Shown here: positions 7,171-57,591 of the stretch, piece after piece
How positions within the stretch are numbered: position 1 is the first letter of the stretch
How the letters are laid out: each line of letters opens with the position of its first letter
Source of the DNA: Branchinecta lynchi
Lineage: Eukaryota; Arthropoda; Branchiopoda; Anostraca; Branchinectidae
DNA length: 64,000 nucleotides
Direction of reading: 5' to 3'
NCBI GenBank assembly: GCA_023053575.1
Contig: JAKZAP010000054.1
Coordinates: 124,001 to 188,000, forward strand
Made by a program: the position numbers and the translations under genes
The notes under the pieces: model-generated
Database searches by the model: none
Told to the model about the DNA's origin: nothing
Seen by the model: only the letters and a program-made list of their open reading frames with translations

Positions 7171-7436
7171 GTGGAGAGATCCGGATGAAACTTGGTGGAA
7201 AGAACAAGCACAAGTCCTAGATACGTGACGGATATAACCGGAACGGATCCGATCACGTTTGGGGGGGGGGGGAGTCCGAATTTCTAGTGATCCCGCGAGT
7301 TTGGTGCTTCCTGATGTGCTGGGACGCTGAAAATCGGCAGGCATGTCCGGGACCAGACCAGATTAAATAGGAAATAGTCATTCCCTCGATCCGATCATCT
7401 GGGAGGGGGAGTGGAGGGAGGGGGAAGTCAAAATTT
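7171..7436 (-). repeat. P unit inside C-P-H composite
   Basis: Single P unit with GATGAAACTTGGTGGAAAG, ACAAGCACAAGTCCTAGATA, a 12-G run at about 7260, and CATGTCCGGGACCAGACCAG. Equivalent units lie at 24992-25264 and, inverted, at 42062-42355. Confidence 0.75.
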
Positions 7437-7498
7437 GAGGTATTTATTCAAACAATGTTTACAACGGATACGTCAGCTACTATTCTTCATCAGCGATA

Positions 7499-7530
7499 TT
7501 TCGGCCCTTCTTGGCAAGGGTCCTCGTCAG
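7499..7530 (-). ncRNA. Hammerhead-like ribozyme core (left arm)
   Basis: Read on the minus strand: CTGACGA, stem II with a ten-base apical region, then GAAA. Upstream is GATTGACAGC, whose last bases CAGC can pair with GCTG downstream of GAAA to form a short stem I. Stem III would be very short, so activity may need a dimer. Confidence 0.5.
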
Positions 7531-7618
7531 GCTGTCAATCTTATGGTTCAACTTCGGAGAAGGAAACAAACCTGTAATAATGTAATCCTGTAACAAACCT
7601 GTAAACCTGACCTCGAAC

Positions 7619-7650
7619 CTGACGAGGACCCTTGCCAAGAAGGGCCGAAA
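7619..7650 (+). ncRNA. Hammerhead-like ribozyme core (right arm)
   Basis: CTGACGA at 7619-7625 and GAAA at 7647-7650, enclosing the same stem II as the left arm. Here the bases before the core (CCTCGAAC) do not pair well with the downstream GCTG, so this copy is probably less able to fold than its partner. Confidence 0.45.
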
Positions 7651-7747
7651 TATCGCTGATGAAGAATAGTAGCTGACGTATCCGTTGTAAACATTGTTTG
7701 AATAAATGTTTCAAAGTCAGCTTGGGCTCAAAGAATATTTAATTTGA

Positions 7748-8345
7748 GGTATTTTTGGGATCCCAAAACGTAAGTGGAGGGATACCTATGACATCGCAAA
7801 ATTTGTCCGTCTGTTCGTCCGTCCGTCCGTCCGTCTGTCCGCCCGTCTGTAAGCACGATAACTCTCGAAGGGAATGAGATATTTTGATGAAACTTGGTGT
7901 GAGGGTTCGTTGTGTCGTCGGACCAGTCAAGTTCGTAGATGGGCTTTGTAGCTCTACATTTAGGGGTGGGGGAGGGGATTCAAATTAAGGGACTAACAAA
8001 ATATTTTGAAACAGCTAATGTGATAGTCGATTATGGGGTAAGAAGACATGCTGAACACGATGTTGAAAACTACTTGTTCGCCACGACGGGGGAACAAGTA
8101 GTTCGCCCGGAATCCGGCCAAAACCGGAAAGTTTGTTTAAAGTAAAAGTTTTATTTGAGGTTGATTAGATGTTCGATTTAGGGGTAGGAAGACATGCTTA
8201 AGACGATGGTGAAAACTATTTTCTCGATGGAAAAGTAGTTCGCCCGGAATCCGGCCCAAACCGGAAAGTTTGTTGAAAGTAAAAGTTTTATTTGAAATTG
8301 ATTAGATGTTCGATTTAGGGGTAGGAAGACATGCTTAAGACGATG
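7748..8345 (+). repeat. G element head, truncated duplicate
   Basis: Left G terminus TTTTGGGATCCCAAAACG, the CCTATGACATCGCAAAATTT word, a TCCG/TCTG microsatellite, then about two and a half 137-bp units. It stops abruptly at 8345-8348, where a truncated H element begins. Nearly the same stretch is repeated from about 8466 on, so unit 1 holds an extra 0.7-kb tandem piece lacking from unit 2. Confidence 0.75.
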
Positions 8346-8349
8346 GTGA

Positions 8350-8456
8350 CCCTTGCCAAGAAGGGCCGAAATATCGCTGATGAAGAATAGTAGCTGACGT
8401 ATCCGTTGTAAACATTGTTTGAATAAATGTTTCAAAGTCAGCTTGAGCTCAAAGAA
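8350..8456 (+). repeat. H element, truncated arm
   Basis: Starts inside stem II of the hammerhead-like core (CCCTTGCCAAGAAGGGCC, GAAA), lacking the CTGACGA part, and runs to CAAAGAATAT. It lies exactly at the left edge of the duplicated unit. Confidence 0.7.
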
Positions 8457-8465
8457 TATATTTTT

Positions 8466-9768
8466 GGGATCCCAAAACGTAAGTGGAGGGATACCTATGA
8501 CATCGCAAAATTTGTCCGTCTGTCCGTCCGTCCGTCTGTCCGTCCGTCCGTCCGTCTGTAAGCACGATAACTCTCGAAGGGAATGAGATATTTTGATGAA
8601 ACTTGGTGTGAGGGTTCGTTGTGTCGTCGGACCAGTCAAGTTCGTAGATGGGCTTTGTAGCTCTACATTTAGGGGTGGGGGAGGGGATTCAAATTAAGGG
8701 ACTAACAAAATATTTTGAAACAGCTAATGTGATAGTCGATTATGGGGTAAGAAGACATGCTCAACACGATGGTGAAAACTACTTGTTCACCACGACGGGC
8801 GAACAAGTAGTTCGCCCGGAATCCGGCCCAAACCGGAAAGTTTGTTGAAAGAAAAGTTTTATTTGAAATTGATTAGATGTTCGATTTAGGGGTAGGAAGA
8901 CATGCTTAAGACGATGGTGAAAACTATTTTCTCGATGGACAAGTATTTCGCCTTGAATCCGGCCCAAACCAGAAAGTTTGTTGAAAGTAAAAGTTTTATT
9001 TTAAGTTGATTAAATGTTCGATTTAGAGGTAGGGAGACATGCTGAAGACGATGGTGAAAACTATTTTCTCGACGGACAAGTATTTCGACCGGAATCCGGT
9101 CCAAACCGGAAAGTTTGTCAAAATTAAAAGTTTTATTTGGAGTTTATTAGATGTTCGATTTAGGGCAAGAAGACATGCTGAACACTTATGTGAAAACAAG
9201 TTTCTACCCGGACATGTAGTTCGTCCGGAATCCGGCCAAAACCGGAAATCTGTTGGAAGTCAAAGTTTTATTTCTAGTTGATTAGATAAGCGATTTAGGG
9301 GTAAGAAGAGATGCTGAGTCCCTGTGTGACAATCGTATTTTACCCGGACATATAGTTCGTCCGGAATTCCGGCTGGAATCGGAAAATTTGTTATAAGCTA
9401 AATTTCGATTTGAAGTTGATTAGATTTTCATTACTAGGGAAAGAAGATACCCTGATTTCGTCTTTGAGCTTTCTTTTTTCGCCGGACAAGTAGTTCTGGA
9501 GTTCGGCCGGAACCGGGAAATTGGCAGAAGTGGCAGGAAGTTTTCGTCAAAACAGATATGACTTATAGGGGTAAACACACATGCTGAATCCAAATCTGAA
9601 CTTGGTTTTCTCAGGTGATTAGCTATTTGGCCTCAATCTGTTTCTGAATTTTAATTGTAAAAATCTTCAAAGAGTCTGGCGAAGACTGGATCTGGCTAAG
9701 ACAAGACCCAGTTGTCTGGATCAAATCTTAGATTTTTGGGATCCCATCGACACCTTTGGTCTTGTTTA
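8466..9768 (+). repeat. G element, full
   Basis: TTTTTGGGATCCCAAAACG terminus, CATCGCAAAATTTGTCCG and a TCCG/TCTG microsatellite of about 45 bp, a conserved leader (AGCACGATAACTCTCGAAGG), then about six to seven diverged units of 137 bp, a non-repetitive tail, and the right end GGGATCCCATCGACACC with TTTGGTCTTGTT. Array core plus microsatellite near one end is the layout of pearl/HINE-type nonautonomous Helitron relatives. No transposase is present. Repeat-derived open frames (threonine/aspartate-rich from the microsatellite) are not genes. Confidence 0.75.
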
Positions 9769-9771
9769 TCT

Positions 9772-10262
9772 TGCGAAAAGTGATCGTACAACAAACACAC
9801 AAAAGCACAAGTCCTAGATACCTGACTGACATAACCGGAACGGATCTGCTTACTTTTGGGGAGTTGGGGGGGGGGGGTCCAAATTTCTAGCGAGTTCGGT
9901 GCTTCCTGATGTTCTAGGACGACGAAAATTGGCAGGCATGTCAGCATCCCGACCAGATTGATTGTGGTCACGCTGATATGCCTGCCATATTTCATCGTCC
10001 TAGCACATGTGTAAGCATCTTAAGTCTGGATCACCTGAGTTCCAGAACCCTCCCTCCAGCTCCCCCCCATAGTGCTCGGATCCAGTCCGGTGTTTTCAAC
10101 TATGCACAATCTAGGGCTTATGCTTGTTCTTCTCACCAAGTTTCTTCCCGATCCGTCCACTCTGAACATGTCATACGATTTCCGGTTCCCGCCTCCAGCC
10201 CCCCCCCCCCACCCAAGTCACCGGATTCGTCATTCTCTCATATCTACCGCTAACTTTCTTTG
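9772..10262. repeat. Two P units, head to head
   Basis: 9772-9960 is a minus-orientation P unit with a G run at about 9867. 9961-10262 is a plus-orientation unit with GATATGCCTGCCATATTTCA and C runs at 10065 and 10200. The plus unit recurs at 45606-45890, and the whole pair recurs in unit 2 at 26905-27395. Confidence 0.75.
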
Positions 10263-10620
10263 TGAAGGTTGTCGTAAGATAACTGACCGTGGGTCATAGT
10301 ATGATACCTGCTCGAGAAAAATTATTAAAGGTTAACTTCCTACATAGAGGTTGGTATTGTAAAATAGCCTTGAGAAGGCCATTCAATGTAACCTATCCGA
10401 GTCGAAGGTGAGGTTAGTTATGAAATATCTACCGAGCGCAGCTAGGTTAATCTTTTTAAATGGCCATCGATTATTATTATAACCGTCATCAAGAAAGCTG
10501 GAGGTGGATCTCACTTATGTGATGATTGTCATAGTAAAGCTGACAGTGGGTCATAGGATGATACAACTTGGATAACTGTGCGAGAATAGTTATAATGCAA
10601 TTATATTATATCTTTATTAA
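10263..10620. other. Short intergenic or intronic stretch with a loose direct repeat
   Basis: Two similar segments (about 10274-10320 and 10535-10590) share GTGGGTCATAG, ATGATAC and CGAGAA words. Nothing coding is supported. Confidence 0.4.
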
Positions 10621-10667
10621 GTGTTAGTTCGGAAATATGGGCCGAAATCTTAAGTACATTATTTCAG

Positions 10668-10841
10668 ATCCGAACGAACAGATGCTTGCTTCAGCTCCGG
10701 CACCACCAACATATTCCAAGTCAACGCGACACGTTGCTGCTCCGCCGTTGTACTCCTGGAATCCTCAGTACTTTGGAAGAGGATATAATCATTTGGACTG
10801 GAGGCCAACTGTCTCAACGTTTGGTATATTCGGGCTTCTGG
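10668..10841 (+). CDS. Candidate internal exon, unassigned protein
   Basis: A 174-bp segment preceded by a good acceptor (CATTATTTCAG) and followed by a strong donor (GTACGT). In the frame entering at codon position 2 it is open throughout and leaves after codon position 1, a phase 1-1 exon. The peptide runs from DPNEQM through SAPAPPTYSK and a Tyr/Trp-rich middle (LYSWNPQYFGRGYNHLDW) to FGIFGLLG. The only difference from unit 2 (10696, T to C) is synonymous in this frame but changes a residue in the antisense open frame, which supports the choice. I do not recognise the family. The EB-like exon 3.6 kb downstream has the same strand and phase, so one secreted or membrane protein could use both, but this is inference. 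Other frames are also partly open. Confidence 0.45.
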
Positions 10842-10947
10842 GTACGTTAGCTGAGAGCCTCTCAAATTTTTACGTAAACTCCAATCCCAGTTGATAGAAA
10901 ACTAATTTGTTTGCCAAATTTCACTCGGAGCTCGCGTCTTCTATCAG

Positions 10948-12951
10948 CAGGGGCGTCGCAACCCCCCCCCCCCCCCTCCCCACCTTTTTAAGGTTCGGTA
11001 AAATTTTGGGCCTCCGCCCAAAATTTTACTAGAATTGTTTGGTATTTTTTCGATAGCACAACTGTTGGATATTTTTACGGGGATTCGGTAGTGATGAAGA
11101 ATCCTAAATAGGATACATGTACAAATCTCTTTGGTATAATGATTGGCATTCGGTATAATTGCGAGTATTCGGTAGTTATTATGAATTTGGTGAGAGAATA
11201 TACTGAAATCATTTGGTAGTTTTTCGATCCCGGAACTGTTCGGTATATTTATCGAGATTCCGTAGTTACACAGAATCCCGAATAAGCTACTGGTTCAAAA
11301 TTATTCGGTATTATGATCAGGATTCGGTAATTTATTCCGTATAATTTCTACGATTAGGAAGTTAACCACGAATCCCGACTTCGTTCCAGTTCCGACGAAA
11401 ATATACCGAATAAGAATATTGTTCGATAGTCTTTCGATACCAAAACAATTCGGTATAAGTAAGTAAGTAATTTATTTATAACCCGCCGTTTTCAGAAAGC
11501 GGAGTAAATGAAGAAAATAAATAAAACACATAAACATACACAAAAAGACACTTAATTTCAATCGTCGGCCAGGAAGCAGTGTAGAAGGTTCGTGCGCTGG
11601 TTGGGTTCTGTTGTCGATGATTTTTGATAGCGACGAAGAAACATCCAAAAGGGTAACACTTGCATCTTGAATTTAGAACTTCTCCGTCAAAGTATGGTTA
11701 TGGCATAATTTCGACAAGTGGAGCAGGTGCTTTGCATATTTAAAATAACATGATCTCATCTTTTTTATCTCCTTCTTTCGCAGAACATGAGTGACACCAG
11801 AACGAAATAGTATAGAAGGAGCGCAGAAGGTGCTGTACAATTTTCCCAAAGCTTTACGATTATAGCGCCCCCGGTTGGGGACGATGCGCCCATAGGCGGT
11901 ACGGATTGATCTAGAAACTTCTTGAACAACCGAAGACCAAAATTTTGACAACGAGGATTTGAATGTTATGCCAAGCCATCGTAGAGATTCTGTTGATCTG
12001 ACGACGAACGATCCAAGAGAGATAGAAGAATTAGCATTCAAACGATTTGACGATATAATAACCGGGTATAATAACCGGGATACGGTAGTTAAACAGAATC
12101 CCGAACATGCTATCGGTCTAAATTTATTCGGTATAATAAATCGGATTCGGTAATTGATTCGTTATAATGGCCAGGATTCGGAAGTTACCACGAATCTCGA
12201 AACTCAGAAGAGGTCAAGTGAAGCACTGGTCGCAGACAAAAGGGATGATCTATGATACCATCGATAGTCCTTACTCTTATTTTGGATCCCCCCAAAAATA
12301 TCTAATCACAAATATTTCGAAAATTCCGCCTGCAGCACTTTTCGTAATATTCTCTTGTGGAAGGGCGCGTCATTTGACGGGATTTTAAGCCAAACTTAGG
12401 ATTGAGATTTTGAAACATTAAAAGCTAGAATTTGGACGGAAATTAAATTTGGCAGGAAAAAGCAACAACAAAAATTTCGCCTGCGGCGCTCACTTTATGT
12501 GATTATGGGTAGTTTATTAACTAGGCTATAGTTGCTTCTGCTGCCGGAACGTCGCTCCATCCGGTTTCTGAAACGTCTTAGAGTATCGTTATTTAATCAA
12601 CGGTGATGGAAATTGTAAGAGAAACAGTCAAATTTTAGCCTACAGAAATAAAATGGATTTCAAAAAGTTTTGCCTGCGGCGCTTGATTTAGTTTTCTATT
12701 GGCTATAATAGATAGAAGCTGTTACTGCAATCATGCCCGGCAATATGTTCTACATGTGGGCTTCGCCGAAACGCCACCTAATAGTTGTCTTATCGTCTTT
12801 CATGCTGCCCTTTATTGTTACTCTTCCTACGTAATCGTTTCTATTCCATAAGCTCGAAATCTTAGTTCTAGGATTCGGTAAAAAATTTTAAAGATTAGGT
12901 AAAATTTTGACTCTGCACCCCTCCACCGAAAATGCACTTGCGACGCCCCTG
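10948..12951. mobile_element. hAT-like nonautonomous element (2.0 kb)
   Basis: Terminal inverted repeats CAGGGGCGTCGCAA and TTGCGACGCCCCTG bound the element. Flanks are TCTATCAG (10940-10947) and CCTATCAG (12952-12959), an 8-bp target-site duplication with one mismatch. CAGGGG-type ends with 8-bp duplications are the signature of hAT transposons. Subterminal parts repeat TTCGGTA and GGTATAAT words. No transposase is visible, and a LINE 3' end sits inside. It is inserted next to an older reverse-transcriptase fragment. Confidence 0.75.
11457..12060 (-). pseudogene. LINE 3' end with reverse-transcriptase C-terminal fragment
   Basis: Read on the minus strand, 12041 to about 11550 encodes a stretch resembling the region C-terminal to the catalytic domain of non-LTR reverse transcriptases: LRWLGITF, then YNRKALGKLYSTFCAPSILF, a KKEIKKMRS segment, and a closing SSTTEPNQRTNLLHCFLADD before a stop. 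A short 3' UTR follows, with the tail GGGTTATAAATAAATTACTT and TTAC repeats at 11457. The 5' part and the catalytic motifs are absent, as expected for a 5'-truncated copy. A second 3' end of the same family is at 62019-62235. The clade is not certain. Confidence 0.7.
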
Positions 12952-12959
12952 CCTATCAG

Positions 12960-13335
12960 AGAGGGTTTGCAGACAGAATGTCTTTAGGCTTTCTTCGTAG
13001 GACTCGAATTTCTGTCCAAGAATGATACAGCAGGCTCTCTTCTGAATCCCTTCCAACTTCTCGCTTTGCTGAACTTAGAGTCAAGCGTTCAACACGGAGG
13101 TGTACTCCATCAGGTCGGACGGTAGTTTTATAGCAGGTGACAAGATCAACTGGAGAGAGACCAAATCTTTTGATGCCCGCAAAGGATTTGAGCAGAATTG
13201 ACCCTTTTCTTACGAGGTTTCTTCCATATGGTCATCCCATTTTAGGTTGCTTTTAATAGGATGCCTAGAATTTTCGCAGAGCTGGTCACAAGAAATTGTG
13301 TGTCGTCTTCGAGGGAGTAGGAGTTTGTTTTGTGA
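12960..13335 (-). pseudogene. Non-LTR reverse-transcriptase relic
   Basis: Minus-strand translation gives SAKILGI, then after a frameshift NLKWDDHMEE, then LLKSFAGIKRFGLSPVDLV, CYKTTVRPDG and LLYHSWTEIRVLRRK. This is the typical C-terminal order of CR1/Jockey-like elements (LG, NLKWDDH, Y..T.VRP). At least one frameshift and one stop break the frame. The hAT element separates it from sequence at 10890-10947 that may be its continuation. It differs from the LINE at 11457-12060. Confidence 0.7.
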
Positions 13336-13508
13336 AGTTAAATCTTAGCACGACTCTTTGCTTATTTGTTCACTAGTTTATTGTATTATATTTTATTTTT
13401 ATATTTTTCTGAAGCGTGTAATGGAGTGGAACACGAGTATTTCTCTGTACTCATTATTTTTTGGAAAACAGAGATATAGCAGAATCTTTAATCAGAGTTC
13501 TTACAATA

Positions 13509-14353
13509 ACAACAAGACCTAAGGTTTCGATGGGATCCCAAAAATCTTGTATTTGATAAAGACAACTGGGTCTTGTCTTCGCCAGATCCAGTATTCGCCT
13601 GGCTAATCCTCTGAGAAAACTAAGTTCAGATATACGTCTATCAGCCATATCTATTTTGACAACACTGACCGAAACTTCCTGCTTTACTTCTGCCAAATTT
13701 CTGGTTTCGACTGAATTCCGAGCGAACTACTTGTCCAGCAAAAAAAACAACTCAGAAACGAATCCAGCGTATCTCCTTATCCGTTTAAAAGACATCTAAT
13801 CAACTTCAAATAAAACTTTCACTCAAAAAATTTCCGATTTCAACCGGATTCCAGACAAATTATATGTCCGGGTGAAAAATGATTGTCATATACAGACTCA
13901 GTGTCTTCTTAGCCCTAAATCTGTCATCTAATCAACTTCAAATAAAACTTTTTCTTTTAACAAATTTGCCGGTTTTCGCCAGATTCCGGGTGAACTATTT
14001 TTCCGGTGAGAAAATGGTTTTCATCATCGTGTTCAGCATGCCTTCTTACTCCTAAATCTATCATCTCATCAACTTCAAATAAACTTTTAATTTTAACCAA
14101 GTTTCCGGTTTTTGCCGGATTCCGGACGAAAGACTTGCCCGGCGAGGAAATGGTTTTCACCATCGTGGTCAGCATGTCCTCTTACTTCTAAATCGAACTT
14201 GACCTTACACTTGACCCAAAGAATCTTCACACCAAGTTTCATCGAAATATCTCATTCCCTTCCAGAATAATCGTGCTGACAGACGGACGGACAGACGGAC
14301 AACTTTTGCGATGTCATAGGTATCCCTCCACTTACGTTTTGGGATCCCAAAAA
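13509..14353 (-). repeat. G element, full, reversed
   Basis: Starts with the reversed right end (AACAAGACCTAAGG, GATGGGATCCCAAAAATC), carries three to four reversed 137-bp units (CAACTTCAAATAAA words at about 13800, 13938 and 14070), then the microsatellite (GACAGACGGACGGACAGACG) and the left terminus at about 14339-14353. It lies 46 bp upstream of the EB-like exon, inside the presumed intron. Confidence 0.75.
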
Positions 14354-14399
14354 CATGCTGAAAGAAAAGCAAAAAGTTGATAAGCAATTACATTTTCAG

Positions 14400-14513
14400 G
14401 TGACCCGTGTATAACGGACGGTGATTGTATCGGTCCATACGGTGCCTGCGTAAGCGGAGTTTGCGCATGTGCGGACGGATTTGCGGAAAGCGAGGATAGG
14501 AAAAGCTGCATAT
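14400..14513 (+). CDS. EB/EGF-like cysteine-module exon
   Basis: A 114-bp exon (38 codons) with acceptor TTACATTTTCAG and donor GTAAGT, phase 1 at both ends. The reading is DPCITDGDCIGPYGACVSG, then VCACADGF, ending near KSCI. Six cysteines are spaced C-x5-C-x6-C-x4-C-x1-C-x12-C, the order of EB or EGF-like modules found in extracellular parts of animal receptors and secreted proteins, where phase 1-1 modular exons are the rule. The frame is intact and identical in unit 2. No other exon of the same gene is certain; the candidate at 10668-10841 is the only one with matching strand and phase. The parent protein cannot be named. Confidence 0.75.
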
Positions 14514-14639
14514 GTAAGTACCACGAGGTTTCATCTCCAAACCTTTTTGGAGTTCCTAGGTTCCGTAATACTTTCTTTTTAATGTTATAAGCCGAAAACG
14601 ATCGGTTAAGTTTCTTCAAGTCCAAGTTTAATGTATGTT

Positions 14640-14980
14640 ATTATATAGGAAAAGCTATAGGCCTATTGTGCAATTTGATGGGCAATAAATATATCATTAT
14701 TATTATTATATTACAAAAAGCTGAATTACAAATAGAGGTCCGATGGGCCTGTGATGCCAGTAAAAATCAATAAATAATAGATCAATAAATAAGATCAATA
14801 AATAGCGAGGAACATAGCAAGAGCAGAAGAACCAAAAAATTAAAGTAATGAGAAAAAACACAAAAAAAAACATGGAGAAACCATGCAGCCGTTTTATCCA
14901 GACAAACAAAAATGAATTCAATCAATCAATCCTTATTATTCAAAAACACAGAATTAACAAATAAAACGGGATGATGTCTC
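14640..14980. other. AT-rich intronic stretch
   Basis: ATTATT runs, repeated AATAAATA and GATCAATAAATA words and AATCAATCAATC, then a run into the inverted array. No gene seen. Confidence 0.5.
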
Positions 14981-14983
14981 TAC

Positions 14984-15412
14984 GTAGACACGACAGTACA
15001 TCCAAACGAAAAAAGCGTCAGTACATGGACACGACACTACATGGACACGACGGTACGAGTACCGACACTACATGGACACGACGGTGCAAGTACCGACACT
15101 ACATAGACACGACGGTACAGGTACCGACAGTACGTGGACACTTTTTGATTTTCGACGTAGTGTCGGATTTTGTCCTCATAGTGACGTGTCCACGTAGTGT
15201 CGTTCGACGTACCGTCGTGTCTACGTAGTGTCGTTCGACGTACCGTCGTGTCTATGTAGTGTCGTTCGATGTACCGTCGTGTCTATGTAGTGACGCCATT
15301 TGGTTTTCGACGTTGTGACGTGTCTTCGTAGTGTCGGGCCTTTGTTTTTCTTCGTTCTGACGTGTCCATGTAGCGTCGTGTCCCTGTAGTGTCGGACATT
15401 TGTGTCTCTTCC
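14984..15412. repeat. Inverted array of ~31-bp words (foldback)
   Basis: The left half repeats GACACTACATGGACACGACG with GTAC-centred linkers. After a switch at about 15128-15165 (TTTTTGATTTTCGACG) the right half repeats the complement (GTAGTGTCG, TTCGACGTACCGTCGTGTC). All words are variants of one roughly 31-bp sequence that itself holds TACGTA and GGTACC-like palindromes, so the strand can fold at many registers. A second, diverged array is at 20463-20925. Confidence 0.85.
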
Positions 15413-15599
15413 ATGTCGAAATTCCAGCTTAGGATATTGTCCAGGATTTTTTTTTTTTTTACATGTTGAAGTTCAAAATAACAATAAAGTTTCTGCCTGC
15501 TCCCCTTTACGTACGCCAACACTTGAGTTTAAGTGAATTATAGACGCTAGATGACACCACTCCTTGTCTCTGTTAAAATTTGGCTTCGGCTTGTGCGTC

Positions 15600-16010
15600 T
15601 GCGGGATACGGATAGGACCGGAAATAGACAGAAACAAGTCCGGTTGCAATCTGACCCATAGGTTGGGGGAGGGCGGGGGATTTCCAGAATTCAATCATCA
15701 GCCCATAGACCCGAAAGGATGGTCGGGTCCAAGCCAAACTTGGTTGGAATTAAGAGCTAGGATTCTAGTTGTGTCCCTTTAGGGGTCCGAACCCAATCCG
15801 ACCTCTGTGAGGGAGCGAGTCTGTAAACTCTTGCCATCAGCCTATCTGGTAGGAGCGCTGTCGGAGTTCAAAGATGATACACGCGTAAAAAATACAAACT
15901 CAGCCACGTGCGTATTTTCATCGCATGATGGTGATTTGACGAGGATTATAAATACTTTGGGATGAGACCCTGGGGACAATCAGCAGACTGTAATTTAGGG
16001 TTTTCAGTCT
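15600..16010. repeat. Interspersed repeat with partner at 16.78-16.97 and 19.68-19.81 kb
   Basis: 15797-15893 resembles 16870-16965 (GAGTCTGT, TCTTGCCATCAGCC, CAAAGATGATA words). 15905-16010 resembles 19678-19795 (GTGCGTATTTTCAT, GGGGACAATCAGCAGACTGT, GGTTTTCAGTCT). No coding function is seen. Confidence 0.6.
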
Positions 16011-16012
16011 AA

Positions 16013-16761
16013 AAGCTTGTTCACACGGGACCGAAATAAACGCGTAAACAGCGGCTGACTTGTTAAATACGAGGGATCAACTGTTTGGGGTTGACGGGAT
16101 AATTAAAAAGAAAAACTTCCGAAATTCCAAATGTTCTCTTTGTTTGTAACAAAATGTATGAAATTAACAAAAAAAATCTTGTAGGTTTGTCACAGTCAAA
16201 TACAGTTGACAGATTATCAGGTAACTTAGCAATTTTTACTCACAAAGCAAATAAAATTAACTGAAATATTTTCGTTTTTAAATGAGAACATAAGAAATAA
16301 TTATCAATAAAATAAATAATGCAAAAATAGAATGCAACTTTTAGTGTTGTTCAGTCACTTCTGCGGGCTGAATGGGAAAATCATGTAAATTACTATTTTT
16401 TCTAAATAACAAAACAAAAAGCAAGCATCAACAGAACATCTCTTGATGTACCTTTTTCGAAATCGTTTAGTAATCCTCGGATGCTTAATATAAAAGCCAT
16501 GCTATGTTCAACATTGGTCTGACAGAATTTGAACTGGATTGACCTAACACTTACCAAGTTTGACCTAGTTCTCCTAAATACGGTTTGTATACTGTCCCCT
16601 GAGACATCAAAGGTCGCATTCCGAAGAATTCACCTTATCTCAATAATACGCGCCTATTTAGATGATCGGCCGCTGTTTTTTTTTTCCAACCGCTAATTAC
16701 GCGCGTAAATCAGCCGCTGATGGTGAACTGGCCGCTGTTTCGGCCCCGTGTTAGCAAGCTA
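16013..16761. mobile_element. Harbinger-like MITE with TAA duplication
   Basis: Inverted ends AGCTTGTTCACACGGGACCG and AGCTTGCTAACACGGGGCCG match well, followed by GAAA and CAGCGG words. TAA flanks both sides (16010-16012, 16762-16764). An uninterrupted relative of the host repeat at about 19790-19812 reads GTCT-CACTTGACG, with a single triplet where this copy has the insertion, an internal empty-site control. TAA/TTA duplications are typical of PIF/Harbinger elements. The interior is noncoding. Confidence 0.65.
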
Positions 16762-16764
16762 TAA

Positions 16765-17455
16765 CTTGACGATATTCAGGATAATCCAGTTCGGACCAAT
16801 CAAAACTTCCAAACAAAACTGTCCAACAAAACTTGGTGGGGGGCTCTAATTCTGCCTCTTTGGAGGTCAATTCTGCCTCTGTTGTGGGAGTGAGTCTGTG
16901 AATTCTTGCCATCAGCCCATCTGCTGGGAGCCCTGGCGGAATTCAAAGATGATATACGCGCACGCTTCACAAGTCATCTAGTCCGAACTGTATCAGGAAA
17001 TTAAAGAGTGTTTTGGTACTGAGTTCTATTTAAAGTTGAAAATCCCAGTAAAATTTATTCGTTTGTGGATCCAGGCAAGAGCAAACTGTCTACCAGTACT
17101 TGGAAAAAGCTTTTGGAAAAGGAAAAGCGCAGTATCCTTGTCCTTTTTGTAATTAGAGCGATGAGGCCATGTTCTCTTGAGGTGTGAGCAGCTTTCTAAT
17201 ATAAGGGGTACTCTTTTTCAGAATGGGGGGGATGAGCTACTTCTAGGTATCCTTAAGTCTACAAATGCTAGGTCTATAGTGTGTTTTGGCAACATGGTAG
17301 AAAAAGTTATTAGTTTAGCAGAAAGTCGGTAGGATATTAAGTTAAGAATGTGAGGTTGTTTGTTAGTAGAGATTGTTCTTTGTTTTGTTTTTCTGTATAT
17401 GGCTTAATCGCTTTCAAATACAGATATATATACGCGCTTAATTAACGGTAAAAAG
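16765..17455. other. Unassigned stretch
   Basis: Contains the repeat partner at 16870-16965 and otherwise unique AT-rich sequence. No splice-bordered open frame stands out. Confidence 0.4.
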
Positions 17456-17805
17456 AACAAGACCAAAGGTTTCGATGGGATGCCAAAACTTTAATATTTG
17501 ATCCATACAATTATGTCTTGCAGATAGGCCTATCCAGGAAACTTAATTCTTTAATTTTACCTATTAACATTTTTACTATTACAATTTAGATACAGATTAA
17601 TACCAATGGCTAGTCATCTGAGAAAACTAAGCTCAGATTCAGCATATGTGTTACCCCTACATGTCATATCTACTTTGACGAAATTGATCGAAACTTCCTT
17701 CCTGCCAAATATCCGGTTCCGGCCAGATTCCAGATGAACTACTTGTCGGGCAAAAAATTAAGCTCAAAACAAAATCAGCGCATCCCTTTATGGGATCCCA
17801 AAACG
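17456..17805 (-). repeat. G element, short, reversed
   Basis: Begins GAACAAGACCAAAGG, ends GGGATCCCAAAACGTAAACG. The 137-bp array is reduced to a fraction of one unit and the microsatellite is gone, so this is an internally deleted copy. The palindrome at its right end reads GGGATGCC. Confidence 0.7.
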
Positions 17806-18214
17806 TAAACGTCGGTGTAAAAGCGGGCTTTGTTCGTTATTATTGGCGATCGACAGCTATCTTATGGTGAAGCGCTTGCAAACTCAATCTCCCCACATTG
17901 GACCAAAGATACGAGCAGATTATCCTTAGGTTTGGGAAGTTTCTTCTCTCGAAACCCCAGCATCGAGACATCTTACCACCCACTGCACCGCCCAACAACC
18001 GTACGCGTCACCAAAATAAACTGGTTCCAGTAGCTTCGCGAACGAACCACCACGCAAATTCGTTTGTACCTTTTTTTTACGGATTTGCTAAACAAAGCCG
18101 AGTGATATTTTCTTCTTTTATTTTGTTTTTTATGTTAGATTGTTATTTAGTATAGTGAAGCAACGCAAATTAGCTGTCAGCTACGATGTTGTCTAAACAA
18201 ACCTATCTCTCTCT
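17806..18214. other. Unassigned stretch with overlapping open frames
   Basis: Two overlapping short + frames (17830-18033, 17898-18155) exist but show no domain and no clear splice structure. A CT microsatellite precedes the next G element. I see no supported gene. Confidence 0.4.
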
Positions 18215-19218
18215 CTAACTGGAGGGATACCTATGACATCGCAAAAATGTCTCCTCTCGAAGGGAACGAGATATTTTGATGAAACTTGTTGTTAGGATTC
18301 ATTTGGTCAAGGGTAAGGTCAAGTTCGTAGATGGGCTCTGTAGCCCTACATTTAGGGGTGGGGGAGGGGTTCAAATTAAGGGACAAGCAAAATATTTTTA
18401 AACAGCTAATGAGACAGTCGATTATGGGTTAAGAAGGCATGCTGAGCACGATATTGAAAACCATTTTCTCGCCGGACAAGTAGTTCGTCCGGAATCCGGC
18501 AAAAACCGGAAAGTTGGTTAAAAGTGAAAGTTTTATTTGAAGTTGATTAGATGTTCGATTTAGGGGTAAGAAAACATGTTGAATACGATGGTGAGAATCA
18601 TTTTCTCGCCAAACAAGTAGTTCATCCGGAATCTGGTGAAAACCGGAAATTTGGTTAAAAGTAAAAGTTTCATTCGAAGTTGATTAAATGTTCGATTTAG
18701 GGGTGAAAAGATACGCTGAAGACGATAGTAGAAACCATTTTCTAGTCGAACAACTAGTACGACCGGAATCCGGCCAAGACCGGAAATTTTTTTAAAAGCA
18801 AAAGTTTGATTGGATGACAGATTAAGGGGTAAGAAGAGAGGCTGAGTTTGTATAGGACAATCATTTTTTAACCGAACATATAATTAGTCCGGAATCCGGT
18901 TGTAACCGGAATTTTCTTTTAAGTCAAAGTTTTATTAAAGTTGATTACATGTTCTTTACAGGGATAAGGAGATACGCTAGATTCGCTTCTGAATTTTCTT
19001 GTTTTGCTGGACTAGTAGTTCTCTCGGAATTCGGACGAAACCGGAAACTTGGCAGAAGTAAAGCAGAAAGGCTCGGTCAGTATCGTCAAAATATATATGG
19101 CTTGTAGAAGTATATCTGAACTTCGTTTCTCTGATGATTAGCCTGGCGAAGACAAGACCCAATTGTCTGAATCAAATATTAGATTTTTGGGATCCCATCG
19201 ACACCTTTGGTCTTGTTC
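18215..19218 (+). repeat. G element, plus orientation
   Basis: Left end truncated at CTGGAGGGATACCTATGACA (terminal palindrome absent), no TCCG microsatellite, about four units of 137 bp, then the right terminus GGGATCCCATCGACACC and TTGGTCTTGTT. A LINE tail is attached directly to it. Confidence 0.75.
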
Positions 19219-19252
19219 AAAATGGCGGGTTACAAATAAATTACTGACTTAC
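19219..19252 (+). repeat. LINE 3' tail fragment
   Basis: AATGGCGGGTTACAAATAAA and TTACTGACTTAC match the tail of the LINE family at 11457 and 62019. Only about 35 bp of it is present, joined to the end of a G element as at 531-560. Confidence 0.5.
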
Positions 19253-19254
19253 TT

Positions 19255-19660
19255 TACGCCTATATCGAACCTCGAATCAACTTCAGATAAACTGTAACTT
19301 TTACCAAATTTTCCAGTTTTGACCGGATTCCGGGCGAACCATTTTTCCGGCGAGAAAATAAGCTTCAGATACGGGTTCAGCATGCCTCCTTATCACTACA
19401 TCGAACCTCTAATCAACTTCAGATAATACTTTTTAAGGTTTTCTGGTTAAGGCCGGATTTCGGGCGAACTACTTGTCCGGGTAGAAAAAACAATAGTCTT
19501 ATACGGATTCAGCATGTCTTCTTACCTCGAGATCGAAAATTTAATCAACTTCAAATGAAACTTTTCCTGAAACTTTCCGGTTTTCGCCAGATTACGAACG
19601 AAGTAATTGTCCGGCGAGAAAAAAAGTCATAGGTATCACGTTACTTACGTTTTGGGATAA
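19255..19660 (-). repeat. G element array, reversed
   Basis: Three reversed 137-bp units (CTAATCAACTTCAGATAA-type words) and the word ATAGGTATCACGTTACTTAC followed by GTTTTGGGAT of the left terminus. The other terminus and the microsatellite are missing. Confidence 0.7.
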
Positions 19661-19819
19661 AAAAAAAAACACTATTTGTGCGTATTTTCATTGTGTTCAC
19701 CGATGAGGATTGAGGATTATAAATCCTTGGAGATGTCACCCTTGGTGACTCTGGGGACAATCAGCAGACTGTGATTTATGGTTTTCAGTCTCACTTGACG
19801 ATATTCAGGATCACAGGCG

Positions 19820-20460
19820 TTACTAGCCAACACAAAAATATTGGGGGGGGGGGCAAGGTATTTGCCAAATGGCCAGTCATTCTACCGACTTTTTTTGCCG
19901 GGAGAAACACTGTTTGTAAGGAATGTTTTGAAAAAAAAATCTACTGATTTCAAGAAAAACCGACTGTCTTTAAGGAAAATCGCCATTTTTACTCCTTCTT
20001 ACTCCCAAACCAAGGATCACAAACCAGTTCACATCTAGACCAGTTTTCCATTTTTTTTCTCTATCCAGGCCGTCCTCAAGCTTTCTACAGACCGAGGATA
20101 TGGTCGCATCGGAATCCCAAAACTAAGGGAAGAAATGATGTTGGTGAATCGGTACTCTGGTCAGAATTCCAACCATCCTACCGTATTTTCCCCACCCCCA
20201 AACTACTAACCCACACTGCCCCACTAATGCTGAATCTCAGAGACATGCAATCCGGTTCCCATCGTCAAGCTTTCCATTATATAAAACGGCTTCCGCAAAC
20301 CCATAACACCATATAGTGTCCGGGCGCCCGAAATGACTACGAACATGGGCGGACTCAAACCAAGAAACAAAAGTGAAGCTAACTACAGCCTATATTCGTT
20401 AAAATAGAACCGCTGGGAATTTTAACAGACTGGCGACTCTACAAAGACAAAACACGCAGG
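19820..20460. other. Unassigned stretch
   Basis: A G run at 19844 and a short open frame (19841-20038) without recognisable motif; GGGCGCCC palindrome near 20332. No gene supported. Confidence 0.4.
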
Positions 20461-20462
20461 TG

Positions 20463-20925
20463 ACACTACGTAGACACGACACTACGAAGACACGACACTA
20501 CATCGAAACGAAAAAAGCGTCAGTACATCGACACGTCACTACAGAGACACGACGGAACGAAGACCGACACTACATGGACACGACGGTACAAGTACCGACA
20601 CTACATGGACACGACGGTACGAGTATCGACACTACATAGACACGACGGTACAGGTACCGACACTACGTAGACACTTTTTGATTTTCGACGTAGTGTCGGA
20701 TTTTGTCCTCGTAGTGACGTGTCCACGTAGTGTCGTTCGACGTACCATCGTGTCTGCGTATTGTCGTTCGATGTACCGTCGTTTCTACGTAGCGTCGTTC
20801 GATGTACCGTCGTGTCCACGTAGTGTCGGTTTTTTTGTCCACGTAGTGACGGGAAATCTGTCCATGTAGCGTCGGATTTTGTCCACGTACTGACGTGTCT
20901 ACGTAGTGTCGTGTCTATGTAGGGG
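20463..20925. repeat. Second inverted array of GACACTACGTAGACAC words
   Basis: Same design as 14984-15412: the left half repeats GACACTACATGGACACGACG, the switch is at about 20668-20695 (same TTTTTGATTTTCGACG core), and the right half repeats GTGTCGTTCGACGTACC. The two arrays share the centre but differ in copy number. A 232-codon minus open frame across the array is repeat-derived. Confidence 0.85.
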
Positions 20926-20934
20926 CGCGAACCC

Positions 20935-21300
20935 CTTTTGGCGAAGTTCGCATTGCATAACTCGCAAACTCGTCTTGGCCGTGAAAGCGCTAAGAAGTCG
21001 TAGTTACAAAACGAAACAATGTCGAAAGGCGGGGATTCCAGAAGCTTATGATTCCATAATGGAGCTAGAAATAATATAAAAGACAGAATAAGCAAGAGGG
21101 CTCCGTTAATGAACAAAGTCCGAGACAAGTCCGAGTCCTTGAAGAAGGCGTCTCGAGACCTTCTCGGGACGAGTCCAGAGTCCGAGTTCACAGCTCTAGC
21201 GGACGGACAGCTCCGTGAACGACGAGTCCGAGTGCTTGAAAAAGGTGTCTCGAGACGAATCGAGATTCCTGAGTCAACCAGCTTACAACCACAACACAAA
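20935..21300. repeat. Interspersed repeat shared with 44.69-44.89 kb
   Basis: 20935-21120 matches 44690-44885 at roughly three quarters of positions (GAAACAATG, GATTCCAGAAGCTTATGA, CAGAATAAGCAAGAGGG). The following 21120-21280 has an internal direct repeat of CGAGTCCTTGAAGAAGG and CTCGAGAC words about 100 bp apart. Open frames on both strands exist here; neither is convincing. Confidence 0.6.
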
Positions 21301-21960
21301 TCTGGGGAAAAAGGCGCAACTTATAATAATAATAATAAGAATAATATAATGCAAAAATAAGGCACATGGCGTCTACAAGAGATTCCCAACCAATCTTTCT
21401 TCTTTTGTTCTTTATTTAAAGTCTATCGATGTTCCCATCCTTGTTTAATTTTAATTATTATTTACTATTTATTTTTGTTTAATTGCGACTGTGCCTTGGC
21501 GTTGCTCTCGATTAACTGTATGATTATATAGCGGATGGATGCTATTGGGTATGATTCTTCATGTTTAAGATAATTTGGTTTTATTTATTTTTTCTGTGTG
21601 CGCTCGAGCTCTGCTCTCAGCAGCAGAAAGTGATAATGATAGATTTTCGTTTGCAAATAAAGATACTTGAACCCTCTTCAGAAACCTTATTTCACTGACA
21701 TTCTTGCATAATCGAACAACTCCAAAAACAGAGATGAGCATTTTCCCGACCCTTCCTCGTTTTTGGTTTATTTATTTCAAAAGATAGCTCACATCACATC
21801 ACAAATACTGGATAGAAAACCGATATAAGTAAGCCGAAAGAAGAAAAAAAAAGGAAAAGTAAGCCTGCTTCAATCAAGAATGGGTTGGAACCCAATAATA
21901 TGTTCTTTCCCCCAAGCTTCCTTGGGAACGCGGCTTTCCTCAAGGACCTAAGCCCCGATA
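21300..21960. other. AT-rich intronic stretch
   Basis: AAT microsatellite near 21328, ATTTATTTTTG-rich sequence and a TTTGCAAATAAAGATACTTG end, all upstream of the Bicaudal-C exon. No other gene seen. Confidence 0.5.
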
Positions 21961-21967
21961 TTTGCAG

Positions 21968-22186
21968 TCGTTGATGCCAATCGTCTTGAGTATTGATCTT
22001 CCCGAGAACTCACTACACCTGGAACCAAACTTCCAGTACGTCCAGAAAAAGTGCGGAGTCCAGATCCGGGTTCGACCGAGGGCCAGGGGCGTACCCGGCA
22101 GCATCTCCGTCAAAGGATCGGAGTTCGATGTCAGAAATTTGAAGGAGGCCGTTTTCAGGATTATGCAGCATGTTCTTCGGTCCATG
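21968..22186 (+). CDS. BICC1: Bicaudal-C homolog exon, KH-like region
   Basis: A 219-bp exon of 73 codons between acceptor ATATTTGCAG and donor GTAAGC, phase 0 at both ends. The peptide starts SLMPIVLSIDLP, continues with YVQKKCGVQIRVRPRARG and VKGSEFDVRNLKEAVF, and ends IMQHVLRSM. This fits the segment between KH domains of Bicaudal-C proteins, which have an L-P-VL-x3-LP strand, an I-V-R-x-R stretch, V-x-GS and a KEA helix followed by H-L-x2-S. Bicaudal-C is an RNA-binding regulator of maternal and ciliary mRNAs. The match is from memory of the family, not an alignment. No neighbouring exon of the gene is in the window, so introns are at least several kb. The identical exon recurs at 39102-39320. 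Confidence 0.7.
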
Positions 22187-22299
22187 GTAAGCCACATTTG
22201 TTATGTATTGACTTTGTTATTTTTTCTGTGCTTATTTTCTTTCCTTCTTTATAGTCTGTATCTTTGTTCTTCTTCTTCATCTTTTTGGAAAAGATGAAA

Positions 22300-24060
22300 T
22301 TGCGGGATCTAGCTATCCCGCGAGTATCTCGAACTTGTGTTTGTTCTTCCCACCAAGTTTCATCTCGATCCCTCCACTCTAAGCGTTTCACAAGATTTCT
22401 GGTTCCCTCCTCCAACTCCCACCAGTGTCATCGGATCCGGTCCGGATTTATAGTGGGACGTCTGAGACACAAGGTCATCCTAAATATCAAATTTCATCAA
22501 GATCCGATCACTTGTTCGCAAGATAAAAAATACCTCAAATTTTGGCTTCCCCTCCATCCATTCCCCCTCCCAGATGATCGGATCGAGGGAATGACTATTT
22601 CCTATTTAATCTGGTCGGGTCCTGGACATGCCTACCGATTTTCAGCGTCCCAGCACATCAGGAAGCACCAAACTCGCGGGATCACTAGAAATTCCGACCC
22701 CCCCCCCCCCAACTCCTCCAAAGTGAGCGGCCGTTCCAGTTATGTCAGTCAGGTATCTAGGACTTGTGCTTGTTCTTTCCACCAAGTTACCATCCAGATC
22801 TCTCCACTCTAAGCGTTTCTCAAGATGTCCGGTTCCCTCCTCCAACTCCCCCAGTGTCATCGGATCCGGTCCGGATTTAAAGTGGGACGTCTGAGACACG
22901 AAGTCATCCTAAATATCAACTTTCGTCAAGATCCGATCACCCGTTGGCAAGTTAAAAATACCTCAATTTTTCGGCTCCCCCCCTCCGTCCACTCCCCCCA
23001 GATGGTCGTATCGGGGAAATGACTTTTACCTATTTAATCTGGTCGGGACGCTGACATGCCTGCCAATTTTCGTCGTCCTAGCACATCAGGAAGCACCAAA
23101 CTCGCGGGATCACTAGAAATTCGGACTCCCCCCCCCCAACTCCTCCTCCAAAGTGAGCGGATCCGTTCCGATTATGTCAGTCAGGTATCTAGGACTTGTG
23201 CTTGTTCTTTCCACCAAGTTTCATCCAGATCTCCCCACTCTAAGCGTTTCTCAAGATTTCGGTTCCCTCCTCCAACTCCCCCCAGTGTCATCGGATCCGG
23301 TCCGGATTAAAGTGGGACGTCTGAGACATGAAGTCTTCCTAATATCAACTTTCGTCAAGATCCGATCACCCGTTCGCAAGTTAAAAATACCTCAATTTTT
23401 CGGCTCCCCCCTCCCTCCACTTCCCCCAGATGGTTGGATCGGGGAAGACCACCGAACTGGCAGGATCACTAGAAATTTGGACTCCCCCCCCCCCCCCAGC
23501 TCCCCCAAAGTGAGGGGATCCGTCAGTCAGGTATCTAGGATACCTGACTGACAGTTTCCACCAAGTTTCATCCAGATCTGTCCACTCTAAGCGTTTCCCA
23601 AGATTTCTGGTTTCCCCCTCCAACTCCACCCGATGTCACCGGATCTGGTCTGGATTTAAAATGGTTTCAGTTTCATTAAGATCCGATCACCCGTTCGTAA
23701 GCTAAAAATATCTAATTTTTCCTTATTTTTCTGGATTCCTCCTCCCCCCACTCCATCCCCAGATGGTCGGATTGGGGAAGCGACTATTTCTGATTTAATT
23801 TGGTCCGGTCCCTGATATGCCTGCCAAGTTTCATCGTCCTAGCTTATCTGGAAGTGCCCGAAGTAGCAAAAACGGGACCGACAGACCGACTGACGGACAG
23901 AAATTACAATCGCTATATGGCACTTGGCCGAAGGGCAGGTGAATATTTCCAAGTTTTATCGTCCTAGCCTGAAGTACCCTAACTCGAGAACAGTCGCCTG
24001 ACAGACCGACCGAAAAGTGATCGGTATATGGCACTTGAGCGAAGCTGCACGTGCCTTAAA
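22300..24060 (+). repeat. P repeat array with hairpin end
   Basis: Four tandem units of about 420 bp. Landmarks repeat in order: ATGCCTGCCAATTTTCG, AGCACATCAGGAAGCACC, a C run, GTCAGTCAGGTATCTAGGAC, CACCAAGTTTCATCCAGATC, GATCCGGTCCGGATT, AAGATCCGATCACC. The array ends at about 23860-24055 with GACCGACAGACCGACTGACGG-type stretches and the GGCACTTG / CACGTGCC hairpin at 24030-24055. It begins inside the intron downstream of the Bicaudal-C exon. Confidence 0.85.
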
Positions 24061-24200
24061 AACAGGCTCTGATTTCAACAACTTATCGATGAGTTTAGCT
24101 TAAGCCAGTCTCCAGGCTCTTTGACTTGAGCAACAGACGACAGAAAATAAGTTCTTCGGACGAGTGAGGTTCTGTCAAAAACTTGTCAAGAGCAGAATTA
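24056..24200 (+). repeat. T module next to P end
   Basis: AACAGGCTCTGATTTCAACA, GATGAGTTTAGCTTAAGCC and GACGACAGAAAATAAGTTC are repeated at 46130-46250 directly after another P end. The T sequence continues past the duplication edge to about 24360 and has a counterpart to about 46395. Confidence 0.65.
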
Positions 24201-24620: not shown

Positions 24621-25454
24621 AACTTTGTTTACACTAATCAAACACCTTTGTAAACCATGCCCGCACTTAACCCCTTTTTTGACGCTAATAGATAAGATTC
24701 TTCGCCCTTTTGCTAGGCCCCCTTTGTTATCATGTTTGACAACGATAAGAAACGAGCGTGAAAGCGACAGAAAATCAATTATAAAGGACACTTTTGTTTG
24801 TCAAAGGACGGTTGGGCAGATTTATTTTGGTCGCTAAACTTGATAAGGAATAGCCGAAGTAAACTAAATCCATCAGCGATGAGTCGCTGACTCATAAATA
24901 CAGGGTATACGGTGTATTTGTGTGGAAATCGCAGACATCAGAGGAGCGAATTCAATGACTTTTTGTTGTAAAAAGTCATTATGTGAGTGGAGAGGGATGA
25001 AACTTGGTGGAAAGAACAAGCACAAGTCCTAGATACGTGACGGATATAACCGGAACGGATCCGATCACGTTTGGGGGGGGGGGGGGGGGGGGGGGGGGGA
25101 AGTCCGAATTTCTAGTGATCCCGCGAGTTTGGTGCTTCCTGATGTGCTGGGACGCTGAAAATCGGCAGGCATGTCCGGGACCAGACCAGATTAAATAGGA
25201 AATAGTCATTCCCTCGATCCGATCATCTGGGAGGGGGAGTGGAGGGAGGGGGAAGTCAAAATTTGAGGTATTTATTCAAACAATGTTTACAACAGATACG
25301 TCAGCTACTATTCTTCATCAGCGATATTTCGGCCCTTCTTGGCAAGGGTCCTCGTCAGGCTGTCAATCTTATGGTTCAACTTCGGGGAAGGAAACAAACC
25401 TGTAATAATGTAATCCTGTAACAAACCTGTAAACCTGACCTCGAACCTGACGAG
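24621..25454 (+). mobile_element. Composite C-P-H module, second copy
   Basis: Same order as 6803-7735: C (24621-24990), one reversed P unit (24992-25264) with a 27-G run at 25073-25099, and an H palindrome with arms 25270-25359 and 25446-25535. It differs from the first copy by many substitutions and indels, in contrast to the near-identity of the duplicated units beyond 25455. Confidence 0.7.
25327..25358 (-). ncRNA. Hammerhead-like ribozyme core
   Basis: CTGACGA, stem II and GAAA intact on the minus strand. The upstream GATTGACAGC again allows a CAGC/GCTG stem I. Confidence 0.5.
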
Positions 25455-25478
25455 GACCCTTGCCAAGAAGGGCCGAAA
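25447..25478 (+). ncRNA. Hammerhead-like ribozyme core
   Basis: CTGACGA at 25447-25453 and GAAA at 25475-25478. The second duplication unit begins inside this core, at 25455. Confidence 0.45.
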
Positions 25479-25569
25479 TATCGCTGATGAAGAATAGTAG
25501 CTGACGTATCCGTTGTAAACATTGTTTGAATAAATGTTTCAAAGTCAGCTTGAGCTCAAAGAATATATT

Positions 25570-26902
25570 TTTGGGATCCCAAAACGTAAGTGGAGGGATA
25601 CCTATGACATCGCAAAATTTGTCCGTCTGTCCGTCCGTCCGTCTGTCCGTCCGTCCGTCCGTCTGTAAGCACGATAACTCTCGAAGGGAATGAGATATTT
25701 TGATGAAACTTGGTGTGAGGGTTCGTTGTGTCGTCGGACCAGTCAAGTTCGTAGATGGGCTTTGTAGCTCTACATTTAGGGGTGGGGGAGGGGATTCAAA
25801 TTAAGGGACTAACAAAATATTTTGAAACAGCTAATGTGATAGTCGATTATGGGGTAAGAAGACATGCTCAACACGATGGTGAAAACTACTTGTTCACCAC
25901 GACGGGCGAACAAGTAGTTCGCCACGACGGGCGAACAAGTAGTTCGCCCGGAATCCGGCCCAAACCGGAAAGTTTGTTGAAAGAAAAGTTTTATTTGAAA
26001 TTGATTAGATGTTCGATTTAGGGGTAGGAAGACATGCTTAAGACGATGGTGAAAACTATTTTCTCGATGGACAAGTATTTCGCCTTGAATCCGGCCCAAA
26101 CCAGAAAGTTTGTTGAAAGTAAAAGTTTTATTTTAAGTTGATTAAATGTTCGATTTAGAGGTAGGGAGACATGCTGAAGACGATGGTGAAAACTATTTTC
26201 TCGACGGACAAGTATTTCGACCGGAATCCGGTCCAAACCGGAAAGTTTGTCAAAATTAAAAGTTTTATTTGGAGTTGATTAGATGTTCGATTTAGGGCAA
26301 GAAGACATGCTGAACACTTATGTGAAAACAAGTTTCTACCCGGACATGTAGTTCGTCCGGAATCCGGCCAAAACCGGAAAACTGTTGGAAGTCAAAGTTT
26401 TATTTCTAGTTGATTAGATAAGCGATTTAGGGGTAAGAAGAGATGCTGAGTCCCTGTGTGACAATCGTATTTTACCCGGACATATAGTTCGTCCGGAATT
26501 CCGGCTGGAATCGGAAAATTTGTTATAAGCTAAATTTCGATTTGAAGTTGATTAGATTTTCATTACTAGGGAAAGAAGATACCCTGATTTCGTCTTTGAG
26601 CTTTCTTTTTTCGCCGGACAAGTAGTTCTGGAGTTCGGCCGGAACCGGGAAATTGGCAGAAGTGGCAGGAAGTTTTCGTCAAAACAGATATGACTTATAG
26701 GGGTAAACACACATGCTGAATCCAAATCTGAACTTGGTTTTCTCAGGTGATTAGCTATTTGGCCTCAATCTGTTTCTGAATTTTAATTGTAAAAATGTTC
26801 GAAGAGTCTGGCGAAGACTGGATCTGGCTAAGACAAGACCCAGTTGTCTGGATCAAATCTTAGATTTTTGGGATCCCATCGACACCTTTGGTCTTGTTTA
26901 TC
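25570..26902 (+). repeat. G element, full (unit 2)
   Basis: Counterpart of 8466-9768 with the same microsatellite and array, plus the 26-bp local duplication near 25920. Confidence 0.75.
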
Positions 26903-26904
26903 TT

Positions 26905-57588: not shown

Positions 57589-57591
57589 GAA

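Follow-up and report, generated by a model that had tools for sequence, protein, structure and literature searches.

The locus considered here raises the question of what kind of element combines a palindrome with the core of a hammerhead ribozyme in each of its arms. It lies within a stretch of 64,000 nucleotides from the genome of the anostracan Branchinecta lynchi (hereafter the window), in which related copies recur at several places. The palindrome is, very probably, a short, dead insertion of a Penelope-like element (PLE) that consists of two head-to-head copies of the end region, together with the small kind of hammerhead already known from such elements, so that the ribozyme and the palindrome would both be explained by a known class of retroelements.

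The insertion, denoted element A, extends from 7446 to 7740 and is bounded by 14-bp target-site duplications, AATTTGAGGTATTT, at 7432-7445 and 7741-7754, which match each other exactly; the host repeat also occurs without the insertion, at 22528 and 39662, and there these letters are present only once. The inverted arms (7434-7531 and 7618-7715) span 98 nt with 97% complementarity, in line with the palindrome of the original prediction, but its extent, given there as 7442 to 7707, had to be revised because the right side is 33 nt longer. In the sense direction, the unit from which the arms are built consists of an upstream part, GATTGACAGC, CTGACGA, a 21-nt hairpin, GAAA, TATC and GCTGATGAAGAAT..., followed by either of two 3' ends. 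The left arm (7446-7531, minus strand) carries the unit in antisense, from the 3' end without the tail to the 5' edge of the hammerhead core, and adjoins the 5' strand of stem I, GATTGACAGC (7531-7540, minus strand), which is missing in the right arm. The spacer (7541-7617) comprises a more upstream part of the left, long unit and then a junction stretch of uncertain origin. The right arm (7618-7740, plus strand) runs in sense from position -1 of the core through a tail of about 35 nt and has the core without stem I.

The family comprises 14 arms at nine places in the window and, in addition, a 17-nt arm at element F. Element B (25259-25566, plus strand) is a 99% copy of A located inside a larger duplication and has lost the right-hand target-site duplication, and element C (41771-42056, minus strand) is the same insertion as A. 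Because the left flank is common to all three (99% and 97% identity to the flank of A in B and C, respectively), A, B and C represent one insertion that was spread by larger duplications, and the seven intact cores described below therefore do not correspond to seven events. Element D (41470-41760, minus strand) is a separate insertion that adjoins C, with the duplication AATTTRAGGT (one mismatch) on both sides. Element F (61016-61242, plus strand) joins the 17-nt antisense left arm (61016-61032) to a long sense arm with a tail, between duplications AAGGTACATTGAA at 61003 and 61243; element G (61583-61805, plus strand) has the tail on the left arm and none on the right, between duplications CATATTCCAT at 61573 and 61806. 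Copy I (57562-57668, minus strand) is a single unit, the most diverged one, the borders of which are not readable.

The two remaining copies, E (a sense arm at 8348-8459, plus strand) and H (46726-46838, plus strand), are cut within stem II. Their interpretation as independent 5'-truncated retrocopies was rejected, given that E begins at a duplication breakpoint and that the 3' flank of H has 144 nt in common with the left side of G (46839-46982 and 61441-61584, 93% identity). Probably, H and G are one old insertion that was copied with its surroundings and later cut at stem II in H. The 14 arms would accordingly stem from at least five insertions, namely A/B/C (with E), D, F, G (with H), and I. 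The duplication at the edge of which E is located is direct (8348-24200 and 25455-41333), about 15.9 kb long and 99.7% identical, with 17.1 kb between the starts of its two copies, and its left breakpoint lies inside stem II of the palindrome, which may have been prone to breakage or have caused difficulties in the assembly. Two further repeats were encountered in the window: an isolated 34-nt stretch at 47466-47499 (minus strand) that matches the upstream part of unit F at 85% and is followed by no hammerhead, and an imperfect tandem repeat at 58550-59731, with a period of about 385-443 bp and C-rich tracts, parts of which resemble the left flank of A with 71-79% identity.

The nature of the element is best read from its borders. 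Borders could be read in four insertions (A/B/C, D, F, and G), and in all of them the 3' end of the unit is found at both borders in inverted orientation; such inverted copies, similar to the pLTRs of PLEs, are present in A, B, C, D, G and, with the 17-nt arm, F. Counted by subtraction from C3 as +1, the border without the tail falls at +85 in A, +87 in D, +90 in F, and +86 in G, and the border with the tail at +122, +121, +122, and up to +125, respectively (the right arm of D is short of one base). Each of the four insertions has exactly one border of either kind, the tail being about 35 nt long (32-39), within the range of the optional 30-40-bp tail of PLEs. The target-site duplications measure 14 bp in A, 10 bp (with one mismatch) in D, 13 bp in F, and 10 bp in G, and the inner ends of the arms are variable, as in 5'-truncated copies. 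Empty sites at two loci confirm the borders: the joined flanks of F match 48300-48490 on the minus strand (154/186), and those of C and D taken together match 22440-22720 on the minus strand (158/171). Judged by eye, the short-arm inner ends of A, D, and G (7618, 41674, and 61707) lie within -1 to +3 of C3, a clustering that random stops would not predict and that counts against the reading proposed here.

This anatomy is that of Penelope, the published layout of which includes inverted pLTRs that contain the start of the ORF, a 31-bp tail optionally present on one of them, and a 9-bp duplication (PMC3846280); inverted pLTRs and short 3' extensions are also listed among the peculiarities of PLEs in a curation guide (PMC8969392). 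The link to Penelope-like terminal repeats that had been proposed for the palindrome is supported by this layout. Conversely, the palindromic carrier, which had been thought unusual, is not, given that an adjacent inverted pLTR is described as part of the 'typical Penelope structure' (PMC3846280). The palindrome would then be an unremarkable representative of a family already described, although its borders are informative on PLE insertion.

Two other types of mobile elements have to be weighed against these borders. A foldback or MITE-like DNA transposon that holds hammerhead-like letters by chance would be short and palindromic and would be flanked by target-site duplications, as the present elements are. 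However, in every one of the four readable insertions one end is about 35 nt longer than the other, the duplications vary between 10 and 14 bp instead of having a fixed length, and the arms are unequal on the inner side. With neither equal terminal inverted repeats nor a fixed duplication length in evidence, this reading was rejected as highly improbable. It is also very unlikely that the palindromes are animal retrozymes, that is, non-autonomous circular-RNA retroelements with type I hammerheads, inserted as inverted pairs. A length of a few hundred bp, a dispersed distribution, a type I hammerhead, and the possibility that retrozymes are moved by PLEs (PMC7761336) all speak for them. According to published descriptions, however, retrozymes form direct tandem repeats of 150-450 bp and contain canonical type I hammerheads (PMC7229834), whereas the units in the window alternate in orientation, even where those of C and D abut, and lack helix III. 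No direct tandem of the unit, and hence no direct tandem repeats bounded by hammerheads, is present within the window, and the retrozyme was rejected on these grounds.

The PLE assignment rests on anatomy because a shallow search of the window detected no PLE gene and no remnant of a reverse transcriptase or of GIY-YIG. A Pfam search of five ORFs yielded 0 families, and a tblastn search for GIY-YIG with one short motif returned only a 5-residue match with an E-value of 3.9, the elements themselves being too short for an ORF that encodes a telomerase-like reverse transcriptase and a GIY-YIG endonuclease. When GTDB genomes and IMG/VR, from which records of the window's own genome were possibly left out, were scanned for exact patterns, 0 and 0 matches were obtained. 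The 162-aa ORF at 11673-12161 had no homologue. One reading frame is open through the unit in the older copies H (46728-46838, LAKKGRNIADEESSL...) and G (61583-61805) and is interrupted by stops in the A family. The PLE ORF may begin with this frame; the 47-residue open frame of H, taken as a PLE N-terminus, had no match in the PDB and none in the protein database at an E-value of 1.

As for the hammerhead, the sense unit shows the layout of the minimal type I variety, with stem I CAGC/GCUG, the core CUGACGA and GAAA, and the cleavage triplet AUC; stem II has two pairs followed by a bulged A and then five more pairs, and there is no stem III beyond AUAU, which is pairable only with a second molecule. 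Hammerheads in PLEs were reportedly first described by Cervera and De la Pena in 2014. Minimal type I hammerheads without helix III are documented in the pLTRs of PLEs (PMC7761336; PMC6155905). The core order and the near-absent stem III had been correctly recognized in the original prediction, and the inventory of cores likewise stands: seven intact CTGANGA...GAAA cores are present, at 7619 and 7530 (plus and minus strand, respectively), 25447 (plus) and 25358 (minus), 41590 and 41892 (both minus), and 61720 (plus), together with five decayed ones, with C3 at 41674, 41973, 61121, and 61707 and in copy I near 57630.

The expectation of a complete hammerhead in both arms was not borne out. A descriptor that required the core, a stem II of at least 4 bp, an NUH site, and a stem I of at least 4 bp was run over the window and matched at two places, the long arm of A and that of B (7530 and 25358, both on the minus strand), the only arms in which CUGANGA, stem II, GAAA, NUH, and stem I all occur; in A, this is the left arm, with C3 at 7530. 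A working ribozyme on both strands is not supported and was rejected: the short arms are devoid of stem I, the core is broken or cut in 7 of the 14 arms, and the predicted fold of the whole-element RNA of A is one long hairpin that hides both cores (-181.6 and -186.2 kcal/mol for the two strands). The lesions are diverse: in C, the long arm lacks GAAA and the short arm has a G-U pair at the base of stem II; the left arm of D lacks the start of the core and the right arm lacks C17; in G, G5 is changed in one arm and stem II is weak in the other; the cores of F and I are broken; and the cuts within stem II in E and H were mentioned above.

Where the layout is complete, folding is consistent with a hammerhead. 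Without constraints, RNAfold predicts the hammerhead fold as the minimum for the 65-mer from the long arm of A (-14.8 kcal/mol), and within the 155-nt arm, pairing in stem I has a probability of 0.48-0.49 for A and of 0.56-0.57 for B. For the right arm of A, which begins one base before the core, the probability of the stem I pairs is 0.0; it is also 0.0 in the right arm of G, where the letters of the core and of stem I are present, stem II is weakened, and no hammerhead fold is obtained. For a composite of the arms, another fold is the minimum, 0.3 kcal/mol below the hammerhead, and in the predicted dimer of the long arm of A, stems I and II are swapped and the AUAU stem III is not formed. 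The adverse results among these leave the PLE assignment unchanged because they do not touch the border anatomy on which it is based. The hammerhead would belong to the source RNA and might require a dimer or the PLE protein.

Covariance models gave no support, an outcome that the original prediction had listed as refuting it: the Rfam hammerhead models had no match up to E=10, whether the entire window or only 7430-7760 was scanned. These models may be ill suited to the hammerheads of PLEs, which lack helix III. A match of the Rfam model MIR837 over the palindrome (37.8 bits, compared with a gathering score of 117) was dismissed as an effect of the long hairpin. Other sub-threshold matches to microRNA-precursor models, at 15035-15294, 32169-32428, 9908-10009, 27041-27140, 23506-23569, and 40639-40702, seem to reflect further strong inverted repeats of the window. 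When the window was shuffled 100 times with its dinucleotides preserved, the hammerhead descriptor still found a match in 4 of the shuffled sequences, and so the motif by itself is only modestly beyond chance and constitutes weak evidence; it is the PLE context that makes the hammerhead reading credible.

Nor is there any indication that selection has preserved the core. Relative to the majority letters, differences amount to 3/77 cells in CTGACGA (one of these in I, at the free position 7), 4/56 in GAAA, 3/56 in TATC, 5/287 in stem II with its loop, and 50/686 at the 49 sites after the cleavage site; in this count, gaps were scored as differences, the left arm of D as well as E and H were omitted from CTGACGA, the first columns of E and H were omitted from stem II, and the 14 rows are not independent. 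The core is therefore no better conserved than the remaining sites, and differences are scarcer only in stem II and its loop; with the same columns omitted, none of the 5 changes in stem II and its loop among the 14 arms is a two-sided compensatory one. Decay of the core at the rate of the rest had been named beforehand as an outcome that refutes the ribozyme, and it is largely what the 14 arms display; such decay would be expected of dead copies with or without a ribozyme in their source. In these copies, the hammerhead is mostly broken, with no sign of upkeep.

The same observations, along with the shuffled matches, the lack of an Rfam match, and the frame that is open in H and G, could be taken to mean that the likeness to a hammerhead is coincidental and that the stretch was conserved for coding, as the start of an ORF, or for protein binding. 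Against this stand the coincidence of core, stem II, stem I, and cleavage triplet at the very place where the hammerheads of PLEs are located, and the unaided folding of the long-arm RNA of A into a hammerhead; we consider a chance likeness improbable.

The pattern of the borders also bears on how the inverted pair arose. From their positions, we read the two fixed ends of the unit, about 85-90 and about 122 nt from C3, as candidate internal start sites of reverse transcription (RT). Under the mechanism that we propose, the enzyme of an intact PLE located elsewhere would cut both target strands about 10-14 bp apart, and each cut 3' end would prime cDNA synthesis at one of the two start sites, on PLE RNA of one source. 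The two cDNAs would stop at different upstream points and would then be joined, yielding an inverted pair with unequal arms and a single tail. The left arm of F favours such two-sided target-primed RT over fold-back self-priming: it is only 17 nt long, compared with about 190-210 nt for the long arm, and 16 of its 17 letters, a private variant included, match the no-tail end of F itself. We think that F is the strongest support for two-sided priming in the window, with further support from the tail being confined to one border in all four insertions, a pattern that has a chance of 1/16 if start sites are chosen evenly and independently. That the head-to-head palindromes of Penelope in general are the direct product of two-sided target-primed RT, with F, whose 17-nt arm lies precisely between the duplication and the no-tail start site, as an arrested example, seems to us evenly balanced between true and false.

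The alternative for the same PLE is that one strand folded back and primed itself, with the antisense strand as template, as was proposed in 2013 for rotifer Penelope on account of palindromes found where inverted copies join (PMC3846280). The identity of the arms of A over 85 nt and the single difference between those of B fit this scheme (the arms of G differ at 9 positions), as does an inverted repeat, CAAACCTG/CAGGTTTG, noticed by eye at the upstream end of the long arm of D. Self-priming is possible, in D above all and also in A. In F, however, the second arm does not begin at the fold-back point, as is apparent from the disparity of the arms, and copying one arm from the other would not yield a tail at one border only in four of four insertions. 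Overall, we regard self-priming as a serious but rather unlikely explanation. Whichever way the inverted pair is made, the useful part of the locus is the regularity of its borders, with both 3' ends used once per readable insertion and the arms of F very unequal, which bears on how PLEs make inverted copies.

Two-sided priming would draw on an activity that is on record for the PLE of the anole Anolis carolinensis (PAc, of the Poseidon type), the enzyme of which cuts and extends both strands in vitro, according to a 2024 study (PMC11167929). In the main text of that study, we found no statement that ties two-strand extension to inverted copies; coverage of the subscription literature being thin, we claim no novelty. 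The ORF of the anole element begins at stem II, the hammerhead is located at the junction of pLTR and ORF, RT most often starts 111-118 nt into the ORF, and the optional 30-40-bp tail spans two RT start sites (PMC11167929). The present elements resemble this arrangement: the distance from the start of stem II (7626) to the end of the tail (7740) in A is 115 nt, and the tail likewise lies between the two candidate start sites. Unlike in PAc, no protein was found here, and the likeness is one of anatomy. The anole hammerhead cleaved only when the PLE protein was present, its catalytic mutants left insertion unaffected, and the cleavage site did not coincide with the end of any RNA read (PMC11167929). 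It follows from these findings that neither activity of, nor need for, the ribozyme can be read from the sequence here.

Among the other known systems, Pen2a_Av and its relatives from Adineta vaga come close in that they have head-to-head inverted terminal units with unequal arms, a short tail optional on one unit, and, where the target-site duplications were read, lengths of 8-10 bp for these (PMC3846280); they differ in that the present insertions contain no ORF between the arms and are only about 223-295 bp long. The minimal type I hammerheads of PLEs and Terminons share with the putative hammerhead described here the absence of helix III and a short stem I (PMC7761336; PMC6155905), the bulged A in stem II being a possible difference of the present unit. 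The non-LTR retrozymes of animals are similarly short and non-coding and carry a type I hammerhead (PMC7229834), whereas the elements in the window are inverted pairs, not direct tandems, and their hammerhead is of the minimal kind.
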